DNA from: a virus
Strand: one strand, 5' to 3'
IMG/VR virus record: IMGVR_UViG_3300006735_000001
Span: 1 to 64,000 of that record
DNA length: 64,000 nucleotides
The notes under the pieces are model-generated. The model had not been told where the DNA came from, did no database searches, and was given only the letters and a program-made list of their open reading frames with translations. Within the stretch, counting starts at the first letter, position 1. Every line of letters begins with the position of its first letter. The translations under genes and the position numbers were made by a program. Below are positions 16,365 to 45,342 of this stretch, in pieces.

Positions 16365-18551
16365 TTATCTAAAGTTTTTGAATCCAGATCTTCTTGTATT
16401 TGAATTTCTATTAGTTTTTTTACGCCCAATATTTTTGAACGGACTATACTTTAATTTAGTAATTTTTTGTGACTTAACCAAGGATTTCTCTTCAGTTTCA
16501 CGTCTTTTACTATATCCCCTGTTTGACTGTTGAATTTTAGAAAATGCCACCAATGCACAAAAAGAAACCATTCTATCCACATTCAAACCAGGATGATATG
16601 CCATCATTTCTTTAATTAACATTTGATCTGGTATACGTTCAATACCAAAAGTTTGTGAAATAACATTACCTTCAACATCTAACTCTTCATCTATAACCTC
16701 TCTTAAAAATTCTATACCATAAGATATTAAATGACTTTTAAATAAAGTACCTGTATTTTTCCAACCATACTCTTGATATACTGTTCTATTAGATCCTAGA
16801 TCTTTTAAAAATAATATCTGTTGTTTAGGTACTAAATATCTTTGTTTTTTTCTAGCAATCATATGTTGAATAAATAAAGAAATATTATTCTCCACTATTG
16901 TCCATGCATTATACCACTCTATGATATATTCTAATCTTTCATGTGTTTTATTAATATCATCATATCTACCACACCATGATGCTACTACTTTATCTTTTTC
17001 TATAAATTGTTCTATATCTCCCGCTTCATTAGTACGTGTTACTTCTGTAGCATTTTTATACACAAAGATACTACATAATGAATCTGACGTAGTAGTCTTT
17101 CCTTCTGACACAGGATCAATAGATGCATAGTATGCTCCAAATTGAGGATCTTTGATTGGACGTTCCCATACAACTATACTACCTGTTTTATCTTGTTGTC
17201 TTTTATTTACTGGAAATTCAGATATAGGTAATTTGGTTGTTCTTTTTGGGACAATACCTTTTTCATCCCTATCTAAAGTAATTAATTCATATGGATATGA
17301 TTTTTCTTCTATACGTTTTAATTGTCTACTTAATAGTCCCTGTGGAAAAATTGATTCTTTTCTATAAGCAAATGCTTCAGAAATATTTAATGGCTTCTGA
17401 GATATTCTAAGTTGAAACTGTTCAGAGTTTAATTCAACCTTCCATCTTTCTCTTTCTAATTTAATAGCTGCAATTGCTTCATCAATTAAACTATTACCGT
17501 ATTCATCAATGTATGGTGGCATAGACCATTGTTCAGGAATAAATAAACCTGCCATACCAATTGTTCCATCAGCATCTATTAAATTTGTTTCTACTGCATA
17601 TATATCATTTCCAACTGGATTAAGTATCATATCTTTAAGTGGATTACATTGTGATAAATCACCCACTGATCCTGCTGCAATAAACATACCTGTAGTTACC
17701 ATACCAGAAGACATAGCAGGACGTAAATACTCATAAGTTTCTGACATTTTAGGTGCTATACCTGCTTCCTCATGAAAAAAATATGTACATGGTCCACCTA
17801 CACCAGTAGTAGCATTTTTCTCAAATGAAGCACCTTGTATTTTAGATTTTAAACCTCTAGAAGTTTTTCTATTATTAATTTTAACTTCTATCTGTTGTTG
17901 CCATAATAATACTTTTTCTGGATTACTAGGTCTATACCAGGCAGTATGCTCATTTAAAAAAGTTTTATATTCTTCTAAAAATTTCCAAGAACCTTTATCA
18001 TTTATATAATCTTTTAATGAAGCCCCAATCTTACATATAGATCCTTCTTCAAACCAATACTGGTTAATTATTTTAGCCATATGAAAATATGAAGAAGCTA
18101 TTTGCCTTTTCTTTAATATGGCTGCATGTTGATTATTTAACTCAGCAATAATTTCATATAATGCCATATGATATTGTGCATCTCTTACTTTTGCAAAACC
18201 ATATTTTTTTTCTTCTTTATCAAAAATAGGTAAAAAGTTAAGCCACATATAGTAATCTCTGGTAAGATACCATTCATTATTACCTTCTTTATATATTACT
18301 CCTTCTCTACATTTAATCTTTTCAAATTCCCAATAAGCAGTAAAGTCTTTTGACCTAAAAGGTTTATTACAGTAATGTCCTTCTTCATTAAATATTTTAG
18401 CTTGTTCATTAAAAGACCAGGCAATCTTTGTAAAATTATATTCACCTGGTTCTTTAAATATACTTTCTAAGTATTCTCTAAAACTTAAATCACTTTCAAA
18501 TGTAGTAGTAGTCCATTTTTTATTTTCATATGTAGGTATGTTTCTACTCAT
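16365..18551 (-). CDS. terL: Terminase large subunit (728 aa)
   Basis: DNA-packaging motor ATPase and nuclease. A terminase-type Walker A variant (KKRQIASS, about 147-154) and Walker B (CTYFFHEEAG, Glu about 261-262) are visible in the N-terminal ATPase domain. A coupling-type segment (MFIAAGSVGDLS) follows. The C-terminal RNase H-like nuclease starts at YYASIDPVSEGKTTTSDS (Asp 478), continues with IVENN, and has a final conserved block (NVDRMVSFCALVAF). The C-terminus is a basic tail. The start overlaps the GroES stop by 8 nt, and the stop abuts the portal start. Confidence 0.9.
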   Translation of the reverse strand: MSRNIPTYENKKWTTTTFESDLSFREYLESIFKEPGEYNFTKIAWSFNEQAKIFNEEGHYCNKPFRSKDFTAYWEFEKIKCREGVIYKEGNNEWYLTRDYYMWLNFLPIFDKEEKKYGFAKVRDAQYHMALYEIIAELNNQHAAILKKRQIASSYFHMAKIINQYWFEEGSICKIGASLKDYINDKGSWKFLEEYKTFLNEHTAWYRPSNPEKVLLWQQQIEVKINNRKTSRGLKSKIQGASFEKNATTGVGGPCTYFFHEEAGIAPKMSETYEYLRPAMSSGMVTTGMFIAAGSVGDLSQCNPLKDMILNPVGNDIYAVETNLIDADGTIGMAGLFIPEQWSMPPYIDEYGNSLIDEAIAAIKLERERWKVELNSEQFQLRISQKPLNISEAFAYRKESIFPQGLLSRQLKRIEEKSYPYELITLDRDEKGIVPKRTTKLPISEFPVNKRQQDKTGSIVVWERPIKDPQFGAYYASIDPVSEGKTTTSDSLCSIFVYKNATEVTRTNEAGDIEQFIEKDKVVASWCGRYDDINKTHERLEYIIEWYNAWTIVENNISLFIQHMIARKKQRYLVPKQQILFLKDLGSNRTVYQEYGWKNTGTLFKSHLISYGIEFLREVIDEELDVEGNVISQTFGIERIPDQMLIKEMMAYHPGLNVDRMVSFCALVAFSKIQQSNRGYSKRRETEEKSLVKSQKITKLKYSPFKNIGRKKTNRNSNTRRSGFKNFR

Positions 18552-39068: not shown

Positions 39069-39461
39069 ATGAGAACAATTAGATGGTGGATACCAGGTAA
39101 TGTTCCTTCCAGTAAAAATGGTAGGCGCTGGACTGGTAAATATTTTATAGCTAGCAAGGCTGTAATGAACTATAGAAAAGCTACTAAACATATTTATCTT
39201 AAGTATACTGATGATTTTAAGAAAGAACTAGCAAAGCAAGAGCTTCCTGTTAAGATCAGATTTGAATTTATTAGAGGTAGCCGTCATAAGTTTGACTATA
39301 TAAATCCTGCACAAACAGTACAAGATGATATGGTTAAGTATGGATGGATTGAAGATGATAATGCAGAGTTTATAATTCCTGCATTTACTAAATACTCTTA
39401 TGATAAGAGAAATCCTGGTGTATGGATAGAGTTAATATTAGAAAATGAAGAAGAAATCTAA
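39069..39461 (+). CDS. rusA: RusA-type Holliday-junction resolvase (130 aa)
   Basis: RusA-type acidic motif: KFDYINPAQTVQDDMVKYGW followed by IEDDNAE, giving the D...QD-D...DD set of catalytic aspartates. The N-terminus (WWIPGNVPSSKNGRRWTGKY) is the typical GxxxxxNKxR start. The dimeric enzyme cuts Holliday junctions and branched replication intermediates before packaging. It starts 1 nt after the primase stop and overlaps the next gene by 17 nt. Confidence 0.9.
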   Translation: MRTIRWWIPGNVPSSKNGRRWTGKYFIASKAVMNYRKATKHIYLKYTDDFKKELAKQELPVKIRFEFIRGSRHKFDYINPAQTVQDDMVKYGWIEDDNAEFIIPAFTKYSYDKRNPGVWIELILENEEEI

Positions 39462-39738
39462 GATAATATCAGCAGAAGAATTTTTCAGATTAAGAGAAAT
39501 GTTCATGGGCTTAGATGAAGATGCTGCAATTGCTGCAGAAATATATAAAAATAGTGATATTCATCAAAAAGAAATAATTGATATTTTGATGGCTAAAGCA
39601 TTGGTGTTTGAACCAAGAAAAAAGTTTTGTGATGCAATTAAGTTTTCAATTAATTTACCAACTCATAGAAAGATTTATGCTTTTATGAAAGAGTCACAAG
39701 CAGAGGAAATTTATTTTAATATTTTAAAGGACATATGA
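39445..39738 (+). CDS. Uncharacterised protein (97 aa)
   Basis: A helical acidic protein (ISAEEFFRLREMFMGLDEDA, AAIAAEIYKNSDIHQKEIID). It overlaps rusA and, by 4 nt, the VWA-metallopeptidase gene, so it is probably part of the same functional group. I do not recognise the family. Confidence 0.6.
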   Translation: MKKKSKIISAEEFFRLREMFMGLDEDAAIAAEIYKNSDIHQKEIIDILMAKALVFEPRKKFCDAIKFSINLPTHRKIYAFMKESQAEEIYFNILKDI

Positions 39739-40901
39739 TAAGTACAGTACAAGAGAATGTCTCTAGAGTTTCTAAGACATTAATATTTACAGAGCCCTTT
39801 TATGGGCTCTTTTTGATTGGTTTAAATAAAAAATATATAACAACTATACCTACAGCAGGTGTTAGTAAACAAGGTATAGGTATTCAATTATCTATTAATC
39901 CAGAATTCTATATGAATTTAACTGAGGATCATAGATATGGTTTAATTAAACATGAGCTATTGCATATTGCATTTGGCCATTTATTATTAAGAGATCTATA
40001 TTCTGATCACAAGTTATTTAATATAGCAGCTGACTTAGAAATCAATCAGTATATAGATTCACATAGACTTCCTGAAGGAGGATTATTATTATCTAGCTTT
40101 CCTGAACTAAAGTTGCCTACTAAGGCAGGCACTAAGGTATACTATGATTTATTACAAGAAGCAAAAGATGAAGGAACATGCCCTTCTTTAGATAGTCTTA
40201 TGAATACTATGGATGGTAATTCACCATATTGTCACGGAACATGGGATGAGTTTGATGAGTTATCTTCTGCAGATAAAAAGCTAGTTCAAAAACAAGTAGA
40301 GCATCAACTAAAAGAAGTTGCACAAGCTACAGAAAAGAGAGCTGGTAGTGTTCCTGGAGAATTACAAGATCTGATAGATAGGCTAACTCACATTGAGCCT
40401 CCTAAGTTTGATTGGAAAGGTTATCTAAAAAGGTTTGTAGGTAATTCTAGTATAGTATATACAAAAAAGCTGAGACGTAAGTATAATAAACGTTATGCAG
40501 CAAATCCAGGACTTAAGATTAAATTTAAGAATCATATTCTTGTTGGTGTTGACACAAGTGGATCTGTAAATAATGATGAGCTAAAAGAATTTTTTAGTGA
40601 GCTTACTCATATGCATAAAACGGGTCACAAGATTACAGTAGCACAATGTGATACTAAAATAAATAGTATAAAAGAATTCAATCCTAAAAAGGATTGGGAA
40701 ATACATGGTCGTGGTGGAACTAGTTTTCAACCAGTTATTGATCACTTTAATGAAAAGAAAGGGCAATACACCGCTCTAATATATTTAACAGATGGTGAGG
40801 CTTATGCTCCAGATAACTGTCCCAAGAACACACTTTGGGTTCACAGCAGTAACTGTAGTATAAATGAAGACTTACCAGGTAAATTAATCCAATTAAATTA
40901 A
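39735..40901 (+). CDS. Metallopeptidase-VWA protein (DUF2201-like, 388 aa)
   Basis: An N-terminal zincin-like domain with KHELLHIAFGHLL (HExxH at 73-77 plus a downstream Glu region FNIAADLEINQYID), then an insert, and a C-terminal VWA-like domain whose MIDAS reads VGVDTSGSVNN (273-277) with GGTSFQPVIDHF and ALIYLTDGEA as further metal-site loops. This is the DUF2201/VWA-like architecture that pairs with MoxR AAA+ ATPases, and a MoxR gene follows 7 nt later. It probably works as a substrate adaptor or peptidase; substrate unknown. Confidence 0.88.
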   Translation: MISTVQENVSRVSKTLIFTEPFYGLFLIGLNKKYITTIPTAGVSKQGIGIQLSINPEFYMNLTEDHRYGLIKHELLHIAFGHLLLRDLYSDHKLFNIAADLEINQYIDSHRLPEGGLLLSSFPELKLPTKAGTKVYYDLLQEAKDEGTCPSLDSLMNTMDGNSPYCHGTWDEFDELSSADKKLVQKQVEHQLKEVAQATEKRAGSVPGELQDLIDRLTHIEPPKFDWKGYLKRFVGNSSIVYTKKLRRKYNKRYAANPGLKIKFKNHILVGVDTSGSVNNDELKEFFSELTHMHKTGHKITVAQCDTKINSIKEFNPKKDWEIHGRGGTSFQPVIDHFNEKKGQYTALIYLTDGEAYAPDNCPKNTLWVHSSNCSINEDLPGKLIQLN

Positions 40902-40908
40902 TAGAAAG

Positions 40909-42177
40909 ATGCAAGTAAATTTAAACGTAACAGAGTTAAAAGGTTTTGTTAACCACATAATTAAGAATAATAGATTCCTTCAAGATAATGGAAAAGGTCC
41001 TGTATCAGTAGAAGTTGTAGGAGAATCAGGTATTGGTAAAACATCCACTATAGTAGAGCTAGCTACAGAAAACAAACTAAAATTTGTAAAACTAAACTTA
41101 GCTCAGATAGAAGAACTTGGTGATTTAGTTGGTTTTCCAGTACGTCAATTCCAGATGTATAAAGAAAAACAAGTAACAATACCAGGTAACAAAGATGTAT
41201 CTATGGTAACTGCAACACAAAGAGCTGCAGGTGCCAGTTTAGCTAATCTAAACACTAAAGTAACTAAGAAAGTTGGTATGTGGGTAGATGAACTTGCTGT
41301 ACAAGAGTATCTAAAGAATGGATACAAAATGACCGGTAAGAATAGAATGTCTTATTGTGCACCTGAATGGATTTCTGACGCTAAAGAAGGTGGTATCTTA
41401 TTATTAGATGACTGGAACCGTGCTGATACAAGATTTATTCAAGCAGTGATGGAATTAATAGATAGACAAACTTATATTTCATGGACATTACCAAAAGACT
41501 GGCACATAATTTTGACAGCAAACCCGGATAATGGAGATTATATGGTTAACAGTGTAGATAGTGCACAGAAGACCAGATATGTAACCGCTAATCTTAAGTT
41601 TGATGTTAATGTATGGGCACAATGGGCTGAGGGTGCAGGAATTGATACTAGATGTATTAACTTCCTGCTGCTCCATCCAGAGTTAGTAACACAAGAAACT
41701 AATGCAAGATCAATTACTACATTCTTTAATTCAATTTCAAGCTTTGAAAAGTTTGAGGATAATCTTAGTATGATTCAAATGATTGGTGAAGGTAGTGTTG
41801 GTGATGCTTTTGCTTCTATGTTTACAACCTTTATTAATAACAAGCTTGATAAGCTAGTATCACCTAAAGAATTATTGACTCATGATAATGAGCAATATAT
41901 TCTTGGTCAGCTTAAATCTTGTGTTGGTGAAGATGATACATACCGTGCAGATATAGCATCTACACTAGCTACCAGACTTGGTAACTATGCAGTAGTATAT
42001 TCTAAGGATAATACTATTACACAAAAAATTACTGATAGATTAAAAGCACTTTGTACTCTAGATTATTTTACAAATGATCTTAAGTATTTAATTGTGCGTA
42101 CAATCTTTAATGGTAATAAAAGTAAATTTAATAAACTAATGATGATCCCTGAGATTATCAAAATGACAATGAAGTAA
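40909..42177 (+). CDS. MoxR-type AAA+ ATPase (422 aa)
   Basis: Walker A VGESGIGKTSTIVE (38-45), a long insert, Walker B GGILLLDDWNRAD (about 164-176), and sensor-1 WHIILTANPDNGDYMVNSVD with a downstream Arg (KTRY). The order and the DxN-type Walker B are MoxR/dynein-like. MoxR ATPases remodel protein complexes together with VWA partners; here the partner is the preceding gene. It is followed after 1 nt by two paralogous unknowns, suggesting a four-protein assembly. Confidence 0.88.
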   Translation: MQVNLNVTELKGFVNHIIKNNRFLQDNGKGPVSVEVVGESGIGKTSTIVELATENKLKFVKLNLAQIEELGDLVGFPVRQFQMYKEKQVTIPGNKDVSMVTATQRAAGASLANLNTKVTKKVGMWVDELAVQEYLKNGYKMTGKNRMSYCAPEWISDAKEGGILLLDDWNRADTRFIQAVMELIDRQTYISWTLPKDWHIILTANPDNGDYMVNSVDSAQKTRYVTANLKFDVNVWAQWAEGAGIDTRCINFLLLHPELVTQETNARSITTFFNSISSFEKFEDNLSMIQMIGEGSVGDAFASMFTTFINNKLDKLVSPKELLTHDNEQYILGQLKSCVGEDDTYRADIASTLATRLGNYAVVYSKDNTITQKITDRLKALCTLDYFTNDLKYLIVRTIFNGNKSKFNKLMMIPEIIKMTMK

Positions 42178-42178
42178 A

Positions 42179-43228
42179 ATGGCAAGTAAATCAGTATTTC
42201 AGAAATATAATACTGATGCATTAGATCATTATGATTTGGCTAATGACCCTAAATACGGGGTCATAGCCGGATCTAATATTGAAGATGTATTAGTAACAGA
42301 AGATGAACTCACATATGAGACTATAAAAGGATTACTTTCTAATCCAACTGAGACAGATCAAACATTTGTAAATAAGAAGAAAGCTTTTATCTTACCGGGT
42401 TGTCCAGTAAGTAATGAAAGATTAAAACCTGCTTTAAAAGAGCATGGTATTACTGTAACAAATGATTATACATTAGCTGACTTGATAATAGGTCATGATG
42501 ATTTTCATGATAGGTTTGAAAATGGTGAGACAATAAAAACTACTATGCTTCTATATAAACTTTGGAATTATGAAACAACCAGTGGAGCCAATGTAGGCGG
42601 TGGAAGTATTGATAAACTAATAAAAGGTCACACAAATCATGTATTGGTTACGCCTAAAGTTACTAATCAAATTAGGTATTATGATCTTGATATAGAAGAT
42701 TCAGTTTATGATTCTTGGGTCATAACAGGATTAGCATTAAACATTGCTTGGGATATAGAACAAGGTAGTAAAAGTGTTGTTGATGTAGATACAGTTTTAC
42801 ATACTTCGGCATCTAAGCAAGATTTAACTCCTGAGTTATCTGATCAGATTATAGCTATGTGGAATGCGGGTGGAGATGATAGAGCAGTAGCTCAAGCATT
42901 GCTTCCTACACTAAAGTATGATGATAACTATCATTTGCTTTGGAATCTAACACAAAGACTAGGAACCGTACATTATAGTCACCATAATAAAGATCTCAAC
43001 TACTGGTTAAAACAATGTAACTGGGAAGGATTTTATAATCGTGATGCACAAAATATGGTGTTATGGTTAGAAGAAGAAGGGAAACTAAATTCTAAAAACT
43101 TTAGATATTTAGAGCCTATAGTACGTAGAGAGATAACCATACATAACAGAGATCTATACGTATTTCAAGTAGCAGTTAAAAAACAATATCGTAAATATTT
43201 AAAAAATGAAAAAGAGATATCTAATTGA
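42179..43228 (+). CDS. Unknown protein A of VWA/MoxR cluster, BRCT-like segment (349 aa)
   Basis: Residues about 66-110 (NKKKAFILPGCPVSNERLKP, ALKEHGITVTNDYTLADLII, GHDDF) have the spacing of a BRCT domain (F.L.G......R..L...G..V......ADLII.). The rest is helical with two blocks (DLDIEDSVYDSWVITGLALN, DDRAVAQALLPTLKYDDNYH). The NKK...P...LKE.G...N...AD signature and the downstream HEAT-like block recur in the next protein, so the two are paralogues. BRCT is a hypothesis from the pattern alone. Confidence 0.65.
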   Translation: MASKSVFQKYNTDALDHYDLANDPKYGVIAGSNIEDVLVTEDELTYETIKGLLSNPTETDQTFVNKKKAFILPGCPVSNERLKPALKEHGITVTNDYTLADLIIGHDDFHDRFENGETIKTTMLLYKLWNYETTSGANVGGGSIDKLIKGHTNHVLVTPKVTNQIRYYDLDIEDSVYDSWVITGLALNIAWDIEQGSKSVVDVDTVLHTSASKQDLTPELSDQIIAMWNAGGDDRAVAQALLPTLKYDDNYHLLWNLTQRLGTVHYSHHNKDLNYWLKQCNWEGFYNRDAQNMVLWLEEEGKLNSKNFRYLEPIVRREITIHNRDLYVFQVAVKKQYRKYLKNEKEISN

Positions 43229-44363
43229 TGTAAAATACAGAGATGAAGACCTTCAAGATGGAGGATTATATAAAATTAAAGAAAGTGCCATTAGAATAGC
43301 AGAAAGTGGTATTTTCTTAGGTCATACTAGTAACTGGCAAGTTAATAAGAATGATTTAAAAACTCTTAACATTCATACTAAACCGCAGGATATAGATCTT
43401 ACTAATAAAAAAGTATATAGGTATCCTCATCTTACATTACCTAGACAAAAGGTAGATTTATTAAAAGAAAGGTTTGGTATGAAAATTATAAGAAATCCTG
43501 ATAAAGCAGATTATCATGTAATATCTAGTAAATTTATTGGTAAATTGATAAACTTAGATTGGAGTAATCATTTTACTTTTTCTGATATTTTTAATTTTTT
43601 CAAGGAACTAAAAGAGCTAGATACATTATCTCCATCAGGATTAGAGAAAGCAAGAGACTTTGTTAATCATGGTGATAGAGATGGAATATACTCTTTTATG
43701 AGTTCTTATTATTATGGTAGTGATAAAAAAGCTGATGCAGTAAGAAAAAATATAGAAAAAGCTAAAGTTAATTTATCAAAATCATCATTTGCTAATACAG
43801 CTACTAGAGCTTTTACTATAAATGAGAATGAAAAAATAGACACATATACTAATCTTGTAAATAATGCAGATAAAATTATTTATGATCTAGATCTTTTAGA
43901 TATTATTGATGAAGATCTTGCTGTGATAGATAATTCTGAATATGATAGGATAAAGCAAATGATATGTAGTTCTGATAGAGAAAATAGAACTCTTGCAATT
44001 GAGATGCTTGCTAATTGTAATATCAATAAGTCTTTTGATGTAGTATCAGGATTATATTATTGGCATTATGATTGGTTTAAAGATACAGCTAACTGGAATT
44101 CAGTTAATGTAAAATCTTTAAGAGAACAATTGAAGGCATATGAAGGATCAAAGCAAATATCTGCTTCATATCCATATAATCAGTTTCTAAATCTTTTGGC
44201 CAGTGATGGAAAATTAACTAAATTTGCAGTAGATAGGACTAGAAATAACTTAGTAAAGAATGTATTGAAAAACTATGTAAATGGTGATGGTAATGCATTC
44301 TCAGTAGCCACAGATAAAGTTATTTTAAATCCCAAATTAACAGAACAAATAATTGATGAATAG
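43206..44363 (+). CDS. Unknown protein B of VWA/MoxR cluster, paralogue of A (385 aa)
   Basis: Residues about 64-108 (TNKKVYRYPHLTLPRQKVDL, LKERFGMKIIRNPDKADYHV, ISSKF) line up with the BRCT-like segment of protein A. A later block (DRENRTLAIEMLANCNINKS, FDVVSGLYYWHYDWFKD) lines up with A's DDRAVAQALLPTLK..DNYHLLWNL. An extra helical insert lies between. It overlaps A by 23 nt and the nuclease gene by 8 nt. Probably a partner of MoxR/VWA; function unknown. Confidence 0.65.
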   Translation: MKKRYLIDVKYRDEDLQDGGLYKIKESAIRIAESGIFLGHTSNWQVNKNDLKTLNIHTKPQDIDLTNKKVYRYPHLTLPRQKVDLLKERFGMKIIRNPDKADYHVISSKFIGKLINLDWSNHFTFSDIFNFFKELKELDTLSPSGLEKARDFVNHGDRDGIYSFMSSYYYGSDKKADAVRKNIEKAKVNLSKSSFANTATRAFTINENEKIDTYTNLVNNADKIIYDLDLLDIIDEDLAVIDNSEYDRIKQMICSSDRENRTLAIEMLANCNINKSFDVVSGLYYWHYDWFKDTANWNSVNVKSLREQLKAYEGSKQISASYPYNQFLNLLASDGKLTKFAVDRTRNNLVKNVLKNYVNGDGNAFSVATDKVILNPKLTEQIIDE

Positions 44364-45342
44364 AAACTTAGAAAAAGAAGAAGAGTTTTATGCTAAGCCT
44401 TTTAGGTTTAGCTACTCTTCTCTTAATAAACTTTTATTTTCACCTTCCTTATTTTATAAGGACTATATATTACAAGAACGTGAGGTAAGAACTGATAAAC
44501 ATTTAGTAGAAGGTAAGCTTGTACATTGTTTAGTGTTTGAACCTGAGAACTTAAATAAAAAGTTTAACATAGTACCTGGTAAAGCGCCATCAGATAGTGT
44601 TAGAAAGGTATTAAAAGACATGTCACTGCATACAGATGTTGAAAAGCTATCAGAAGTAGATGATTTTATTATATTAGATTCACTAAAAGAAATGAATCTT
44701 TATCAGTCATTAAAAGCAGATGAGGCTCGTATTGCTAAAATCAGAACTCTTGATAATGAACCTTATTGGAAATTTTTATCTAATGATGCTGTTGATGTTA
44801 TTAATCAAGATACTTTGTTAGATTGCAAGGCAAAGTCTGAGGTTATAATTGCTAATGAAAAAGTCATGAATTTATTTAAAGATGAACAAACTGATTTTGA
44901 CTTAGACCCAATAAGTATATATGCAGAAAAGTATTTGTCTTCTGAACTTAAAAACGTTGACTTTGGATTACACGGTTATGTAGATTATTTAAAGATAGAT
45001 ACAGATAAAAAGATTGCAACAATATGTGATCTTAAAACAACTGGTAAAACAATTTCAGATTTTAAAGAAACTGTTGATTTCTATAATTATTGGTTACAGG
45101 CAGCTATTTATATGAAATTAGTTTATGATTTTATAGAAAAAGATGCAGATCAATATAAACTAGAATTTAAGTTTATTGTTATAGATAAGTATAATCAGGT
45201 ATATGTATTTGATGTTAGTGATGAAACCATAAATGCATGGACAAATGGTCTTGAAGGTGTTATAAACACTGCAAAATTCCATTATTCAGAGAAAAACTAC
45301 AGTTTACCATATGATTTCTTAGTTAATAACATTAAATTATAG
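44356..45342 (+). CDS. RecE/Cas4-like PD-(D/E)XK exonuclease (328 aa)
   Basis: The catalytic core reads FGLHGYVDYLKIDTDKKIAT followed by ICDLKTTGKTI (D...D-L-K), and the helix NYWLQAAIYMKLVYDFI gives Q-x3-Y. The N-terminal FRFSYSSLNKLLFSPSLFYK plus GKLVHCLVFEP match RecE/DUF3799-type phage exonucleases, where H is a metal ligand. It probably resects dsDNA to feed the Sak4-like ATPase. The ATG at 44356 overlaps protein B; a TTG 3 nt upstream is the alternative. Confidence 0.82.
   Translation: MNRNLEKEEEFYAKPFRFSYSSLNKLLFSPSLFYKDYILQEREVRTDKHLVEGKLVHCLVFEPENLNKKFNIVPGKAPSDSVRKVLKDMSLHTDVEKLSEVDDFIILDSLKEMNLYQSLKADEARIAKIRTLDNEPYWKFLSNDAVDVINQDTLLDCKAKSEVIIANEKVMNLFKDEQTDFDLDPISIYAEKYLSSELKNVDFGLHGYVDYLKIDTDKKIATICDLKTTGKTISDFKETVDFYNYWLQAAIYMKLVYDFIEKDADQYKLEFKFIVIDKYNQVYVFDVSDETINAWTNGLEGVINTAKFHYSEKNYSLPYDFLVNNIKL

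Follow-up and report, generated by a model that had tools for sequence, protein, structure and literature searches.

What does a chain of tightly packed genes, encoding a metallopeptidase-VWA protein, an AAA+ ATPase and several accessory proteins, do in the midst of the replication and recombination genes of a phage? The question is raised by a stretch of 64,000 nucleotides (nt), referred to here as the window, which covers positions 1 to 64,000 of the IMG/VR virus record IMGVR_UViG_3300006735_000001 (113,577 bases in total). An earlier inspection of the letters, the sequence-only reading, had described four consecutive open reading frames (ORFs) with spacings from a 7-nt gap to a 23-nt overlap, flanked by RusA and a RecE-like exonuclease, and these are present on the + strand: the zincin metallopeptidase-VWA fusion (39735..40901), the ATPase (40909..42177), protein A (42179..43228) and protein B (43206..44363). 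As a four-gene system, the description is correct for these members but incomplete, as it had missed a fifth gene, which encodes the 97-amino-acid protein X97 (39445..39738, +). The spacing from one flank to the other is -17 nt (RusA/X97), -4 (X97/VWA), +7 (VWA/ATPase), +1 (ATPase/A), -23 (A/B) and -11 nt (B/RecE-like). The ATPase/zincin-VWA pair itself is already known, whereas the novelty, judging by the sequences, appears to lie in a putative adaptor set, found in 0, 1, 2 or 3 copies along the tree, and in two changes of the ATPase that are linked to A and B.

The zincin-VWA protein was rightly read as DUF2201-like with an HExxH motif and a VWA domain, since both the DUF2201_N metallopeptidase domain (PF13203, 4.6e-16) and the DUF2201 VWA domain (PF09967, 1.9e-16) score over the Pfam cut-off; it also matches PHROG 1314 (3.5e-66). 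Its HELLH motif (39951-39965 in the window), a later His, an AxDxxxN motif and the D-S-S...T...D residues of the metal ion-dependent adhesion site (DTSGS, from 40551) are invariant in all 98 distinct VWA sequences of the cassette. The label "HNH endonuclease", which PHROG 1314 and GenBank attach to the protein, is ruled out by the Pfam assignment to a metallopeptidase and a VWA domain. The same label on N4 gp25-type proteins, in records such as NC_021782 and OR602862, is a propagated misannotation. A relationship to SprT/SPRTN was not recovered with the model NF003339, which gave 13.8 bits against a cut-off of 113.

The ATPase falls into PHROG 1297 (1.2e-34) and matches AAA_5 (PF07728) just under the cut-off (4.6e-4; 20.6 bits, cut-off 22), and among solved structures the best sequence match is midasin (5e-6, phmmer). 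The MoxR model of Pfam, AAA_3 (PF07726), has no match in the record, compared with matches in 13 of 14 control genomes. Of the proposed MoxR AAA+ ATPase, a probable AAA_5 assignment in the MoxR/midasin clade can thus be retained, while MoxR proper cannot, and the name "AAA_5, MoxR/midasin clade" is preferred because PF07726 does not match. The idea that this pair is something new had to be abandoned: it corresponds to the core pair gp24/gp25 of phage N4 and has also been reported in jumbo phages. Relatives of the VWA protein were found in 479 annotated phage records, including those of Schitoviridae (N4 gp25 beside gp24), AR9, Atu_ph07, K64-1, S-TIM5 and the Moorella phage MTATph1.

The accessory proteins are connected with each other at the level of profiles. 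No similarity between A and B is detected by BLAST, and hhalign yields two weak collinear matches (E 0.016 and 0.11), which fall exactly on the two blocks previously noticed as common to both proteins, the BRCT-like segment and a second helical block. Their relationship is established through intermediates: the third protein of locus L189 (L189:5977-6993) matches the A profile with 5e-10 and the B profile with 2e-63, and the single protein of locus L283 (L283:8309-9478), which occupies the A/B position and was part of neither profile, matches them with 3.8e-15 and 4.9e-6, respectively. For these comparisons the A and B sets were kept apart and re-tested with reversed-sequence controls, the best of which reached 0.08. 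A and B are a paralogous pair, as had been suggested, rather than two unlike proteins. In the tree of the VWA proteins, the lineages without A/B are found outermost, followed inwards by the single-copy loci L260, L315, L318 and L283 and then by those with two copies; three copies are present in L189, and L264 contains A only. In the simplest reading, this distribution would reflect one ancestral adaptor that was later duplicated.

In all 223 matches, X97 is encoded directly beside the VWA protein; it is a stand-alone copy of the helical C-terminal domain of A and B. Its profile matches members of the B family (5e-5 and 1e-4), members of the A family (3e-4) and the L189 paralogue (1e-6), and across the whole 113.6-kb record it finds only X97 itself and B (43917-44030, 2.6e-4). 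In Pfam, PHROG, NCBIfam and PADLOC, no entry matches A, B or X97 over the cut-off, nor was a VMAP or inactive STAND match obtained for them in Pfam, NCBIfam or PADLOC, although VMAP domains may be absent from these libraries. A BLAST search against 50,697 phage records gave no match for A, B, X97, the L189 paralogue or the single-copy protein of L318, and a sequence search of the PDB with A and B returned chance-level matches only. The Moorella phage protein CDS0179, encoded next after the pair, was considered as a homologue of A/B and rejected, as neither BLAST nor profiles indicate any similarity.

The structures predicted with AlphaFold2 have a mean pLDDT of 90.6 for A and 90.9 for B. For residues 62-237 of B, VIA ranks 1-37 are all BRCT domains, with Z from 7.3 (PARP1, 2le0) down to 4.5 and unrelated structures from about 4.3, and Foldseek matches the PARP1 BRCT with a probability of 0.99 (E 0.11). 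About 80 of the approximately 175 residues align with BRCT, which leaves an insert of about 100 residues, placed between alpha2 and beta4 by the order of the elements. For residues 61-213 of A, which likewise include an insert, many BRCT rows were obtained with a Z of just 2.2-2.9. The Pfam BRCT model finds 14 of 86 members of the A family at E<=0.1 (best 0.0083), none of them over the cut-off, and no member of the B family. The BRCT-like segment assumed for both proteins is therefore strongly borne out by the models in B and weakly in A; B likely has a BRCT fold, and A probably has one too, through its homology to B. The helical domain that follows (residues ~214-349 of A and ~238-360 of B) gives HEAT/ARM-like rows near Z 4, besides which no other named fold was established. 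Among the predicted viral proteins of BFVD, B has four full-length matches (E<2e-6), which originate from the crAss-like ctYsL76, an uncultured phage and, with two different proteins, Podoviridae sp. ctz6O13. Because two different proteins match B, ctz6O13 probably also has such a paralogue pair.

Relatives of A are encoded on 178 and relatives of B on 187 IMG/VR stretches, from which about 105 and 108 distinct sequences were collected; because the loci overlap, their number does not equal the number of phages. Every uncut locus among these relatives, approximately 100 of them distinct, has the order RusA-X-VWA-ATPase-A-B-RecE, apart from rare split genes and deeper lineages. The link of A/B to the ATPase and the VWA protein is confirmed by this neighbourhood survey, as both are present in every complete locus and A/B occur without the ATPase only at contig ends. 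The gap between B and the RecE-like gene has a median of -8 nt in the relatives. In L009 (2500-3676) and L111 (3666-4774 and 6060-7001), the VWA gene, and in L111 also A, reads as two or three ORFs, presumably owing to frameshifts or inserts. The cassette is also carried by three contigs from bacterial genome collections, which, by their content and in one case also by a size of 114.7 kb, look like phage contigs binned into metagenome-assembled genomes.

Conservation differs widely between the genes, with a median pairwise identity of 0.86 for the ATPase, 0.77 for the VWA protein, 0.74 for RusA, 0.63 for the RecE-like exonuclease, 0.53 for A, 0.34 for B and 0.28 for X. Identity within B is far higher in the BRCT core (0.54) and in the opening portion of the helical domain (0.55) than in the insert (0.17) or at the N-terminus (0.21). 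This pattern would fit an adaptor whose docking portion stays constant while the portion that meets the target varies, which is not proof of such a role.

Two features of the ATPase go together with A and B. The distance between two landmarks is 61-91 residues in all sampled ATPases with A/B, regardless of whether one or two copies are present, as opposed to 21-47 residues in 12 relatives without detectable A/B; in the window, the cassette-specific insert comprises about residues 79-128 (41143..41292). The Walker B motif reads LDDWNRAD in the sampled A/B-linked ATPases (LLLDDWNRAD near 41392-41421 in the window), whereas the 12 relatives without A/B have a DE or EE acidic pair, and Asp takes the place of the catalytic Glu in 94 of 94 readable cassette ATPases. 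Walker A (near 41020-41043) is invariant in the cassette. In some loci, the ATPase gene is split by inserts of about 1 kb (L189:3130-4142, L126:4143-5241, L123:902-2000, L172:241-1444), none of which reaches the gathering score of an Rfam model. The insert in L189 lies after Walker B (DDWNRAD), encodes an ORF resembling a GIY-YIG homing endonuclease and is probably an intron.

As for the genomic setting, the cassette lies inside a long run of replication and recombination genes on the + strand, which includes a helicase-like ATPase, a primase, RusA, the RecE-like exonuclease and a DNA polymerase. The RusA-like Holliday junction resolvase (39069..39461, +; phrog_1682, 1.6e-19) is the upstream flank in nearly all relatives, and the start of the RecE-like PD-(D/E)XK exonuclease (44353..45342, +; PF12705 2.4e-7, phrog_412 3e-15) overlaps B. 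The closest matches to the large terminase (16365-18551, -) come from crAss-like phages, cr1_1 and cr55_1 among them, with about 25% identity, which places the phage in a distant crAss-like lineage near Crassvirales. Its known relatives are mostly environmental metagenome contigs.

We propose, with a probability of about 0.45, that the cassette encodes one ATP-driven remodelling and peptidase machine with adaptors that acts on protein complexes of phage DNA. Its conserved core would consist of the AAA+ ring together with the zincin-VWA protein, and X97, A and B, with their common HEAT/ARM-like helical domain, would serve as dedicated adaptors or accessory subunits. The helical domain may dock them onto the core or onto one another, and the BRCT-like region of A and B, together with the variable insert, may select the target. 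Its targets would be complexes of proteins on phage DNA that is being replicated or recombined; the machine would pull them out, and the HExxH centre might cleave them. Pairs of AAA+ and VWA proteins elsewhere are remodelling chaperones, as described for RavA-ViaA (PMC3893208) and the jumbo-phage pair (PMC7824862). The general part of the proposal, a machine with dedicated accessory subunits, is likely. DNA-bound protein complexes are its most likely targets because the genes lie within, and overlap, the replication/recombination operon; a DNA-linked substrate nevertheless remains a tentative assignment, with somewhat less than an even chance. The action at replication forks, DNA-protein crosslinks or packaging intermediates that the sequence-only reading had thought conceivable would follow from the place of the genes in the replication operon and from the BRCT fold. 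A more specific version, in which BRCT adaptors, duplicated stepwise, bring the zincin-VWA/ATPase core to proteins that block, or are crosslinked to, phage DNA during replication, following a logic like that of the eukaryotic SPRTN/p97 pathway, is distinctly improbable.

Several observations weigh against the proposed machine. The core pair occurs without A, B or X in hundreds of phages, so the adaptors are dispensable for its basic role. The Walker-B Asp might indicate a slow or non-hydrolysing ATPase. Since the ATPase traits and the adaptors are confined to one clade, the insert and the Walker-B change may share a single origin with the cassette, which would make their association one correlated event and not many. 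The resemblance to BRCT is one of structure and of moderate strength, with a Z of at most 7.3 in B and of 2-3 in A, and points to no ligand. Finally, the operon position is weak evidence for the substrate, as the pair of S-TIM5 lies near virion genes.

This last point leads to the most serious rival explanation, which casts the pair as a machine of virion assembly or maturation that would remodel and cleave structural proteins, with A, B and X as chaperone subunits. In the lineage described here, however, the cassette is always found amid replication and recombination genes and overlaps the RecE-like exonuclease, an annotated early promoter stands directly ahead of the ATPase/zincin-vWA pair of AR9 (L249:5647-5659), and the BRCT fold is one typically seen in DNA-repair proteins. 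A virion role has been proposed for the pair of jumbo phages, on the model of the MoxR-VWA system of Acidianus two-tailed virus (PMC7824862), and virion genes are located near the roseophage homologues of N4 gp24/gp25 (PMC4193335) and beside the S-TIM5 pair, but the N4 transcripts belong to the middle and not to the late period (PMC4193335). Taken together, we regard a function in the virion as unlikely, though it deserves to be taken seriously.

The fast evolution of B and X next to a nearly frozen core, and the appearance of additional copies as in L189, could instead reflect changes of host, if the adaptors seized host proteins or defence proteins, which would then be unfolded and cleaved; ternary MoxR-VWA systems with adaptor domains do act in biological conflicts (PMC7159879). 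Such a host-takeover or counter-defence protease is improbable given that no PADLOC or NCBIfam link exceeds the cut-off, that the gene order is rigid compared with swappable anti-defence islands and that the neighbours are replication genes. It is also conceivable that A and B are DNA-binding recombination or replication proteins that merely share an operon with an independent ATPase/VWA pair, in line with the BRCT fold, for which the PARP1 BRCT is the best match, and with their position between RusA and RecE. That explanation is highly improbable, as X97, which shares only the helical domain, is encoded beyond the opposite end of the pair, which is thereby bracketed by the family, the ATPase insert and the Walker-B change go with A/B, and A/B and the pair are never apart in the approximately 100 distinct relatives.

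The significance of the locus is that a pair known from hundreds of phages is here locked to three related accessory proteins, one of them with a predicted BRCT fold, and to matching changes of the ATPase. The question of the function of the pair thereby becomes testable by identifying the partners of A, B and X97, and the evolutionary series with none, one, two and three adaptors bears on how a remodelling ATPase gains dedicated adaptors.

Among known systems, the closest counterpart is N4 gp24/gp25 of the Schitoviridae (PHROG 1297 and PHROG 1314), which also combines an AAA+ ATPase with an adjacent or close HExxH metallopeptidase-VWA protein, the latter with ~28-30% identity to the window protein over 95% of the length. 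Both genes are core genes of N4-like phages, transcribed in the middle period (PMC4193335), and lie in an early/middle region near DNA replication genes. In the Schitoviridae, however, the ATPase gene comes first, its product has Glu in Walker B and no long insert, and A, B and X97 were not detected beside the pair. The MoxR/metallopeptidase-vWA pair of jumbo phages has the same two-protein architecture, but BRCT/helical adaptors are not described for it and a role in virion assembly was proposed (Iyer et al., 2021; PMC7824862). RavA-ViaA of E. coli likewise unites a MoxR-clade AAA+ ATPase with a VWA partner; in contrast, it has a role in a host enzyme complex, and neither a metallopeptidase domain nor BRCT adaptors are described (PMC3893208). 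The BRCT proteins PARP1, REV1, XRCC1 and BRCA1 resemble the fold predicted for residues 62-237 of B and, weakly, that of residues 61-213 of A, from which they differ in that A/B have a large alpha2-beta4 insert and a sequence under the Pfam thresholds. Compared with the VMAP/MoxR-vWA conflict systems, the cassette has a VWA-zincin fusion and a phage replication context, with no VMAP/STAND recognised and no effector turnover, and yet it shares with them the plan of a core with a third component and a small adaptor domain that recurs in several proteins (Kaur et al., 2020; PMC7159879).

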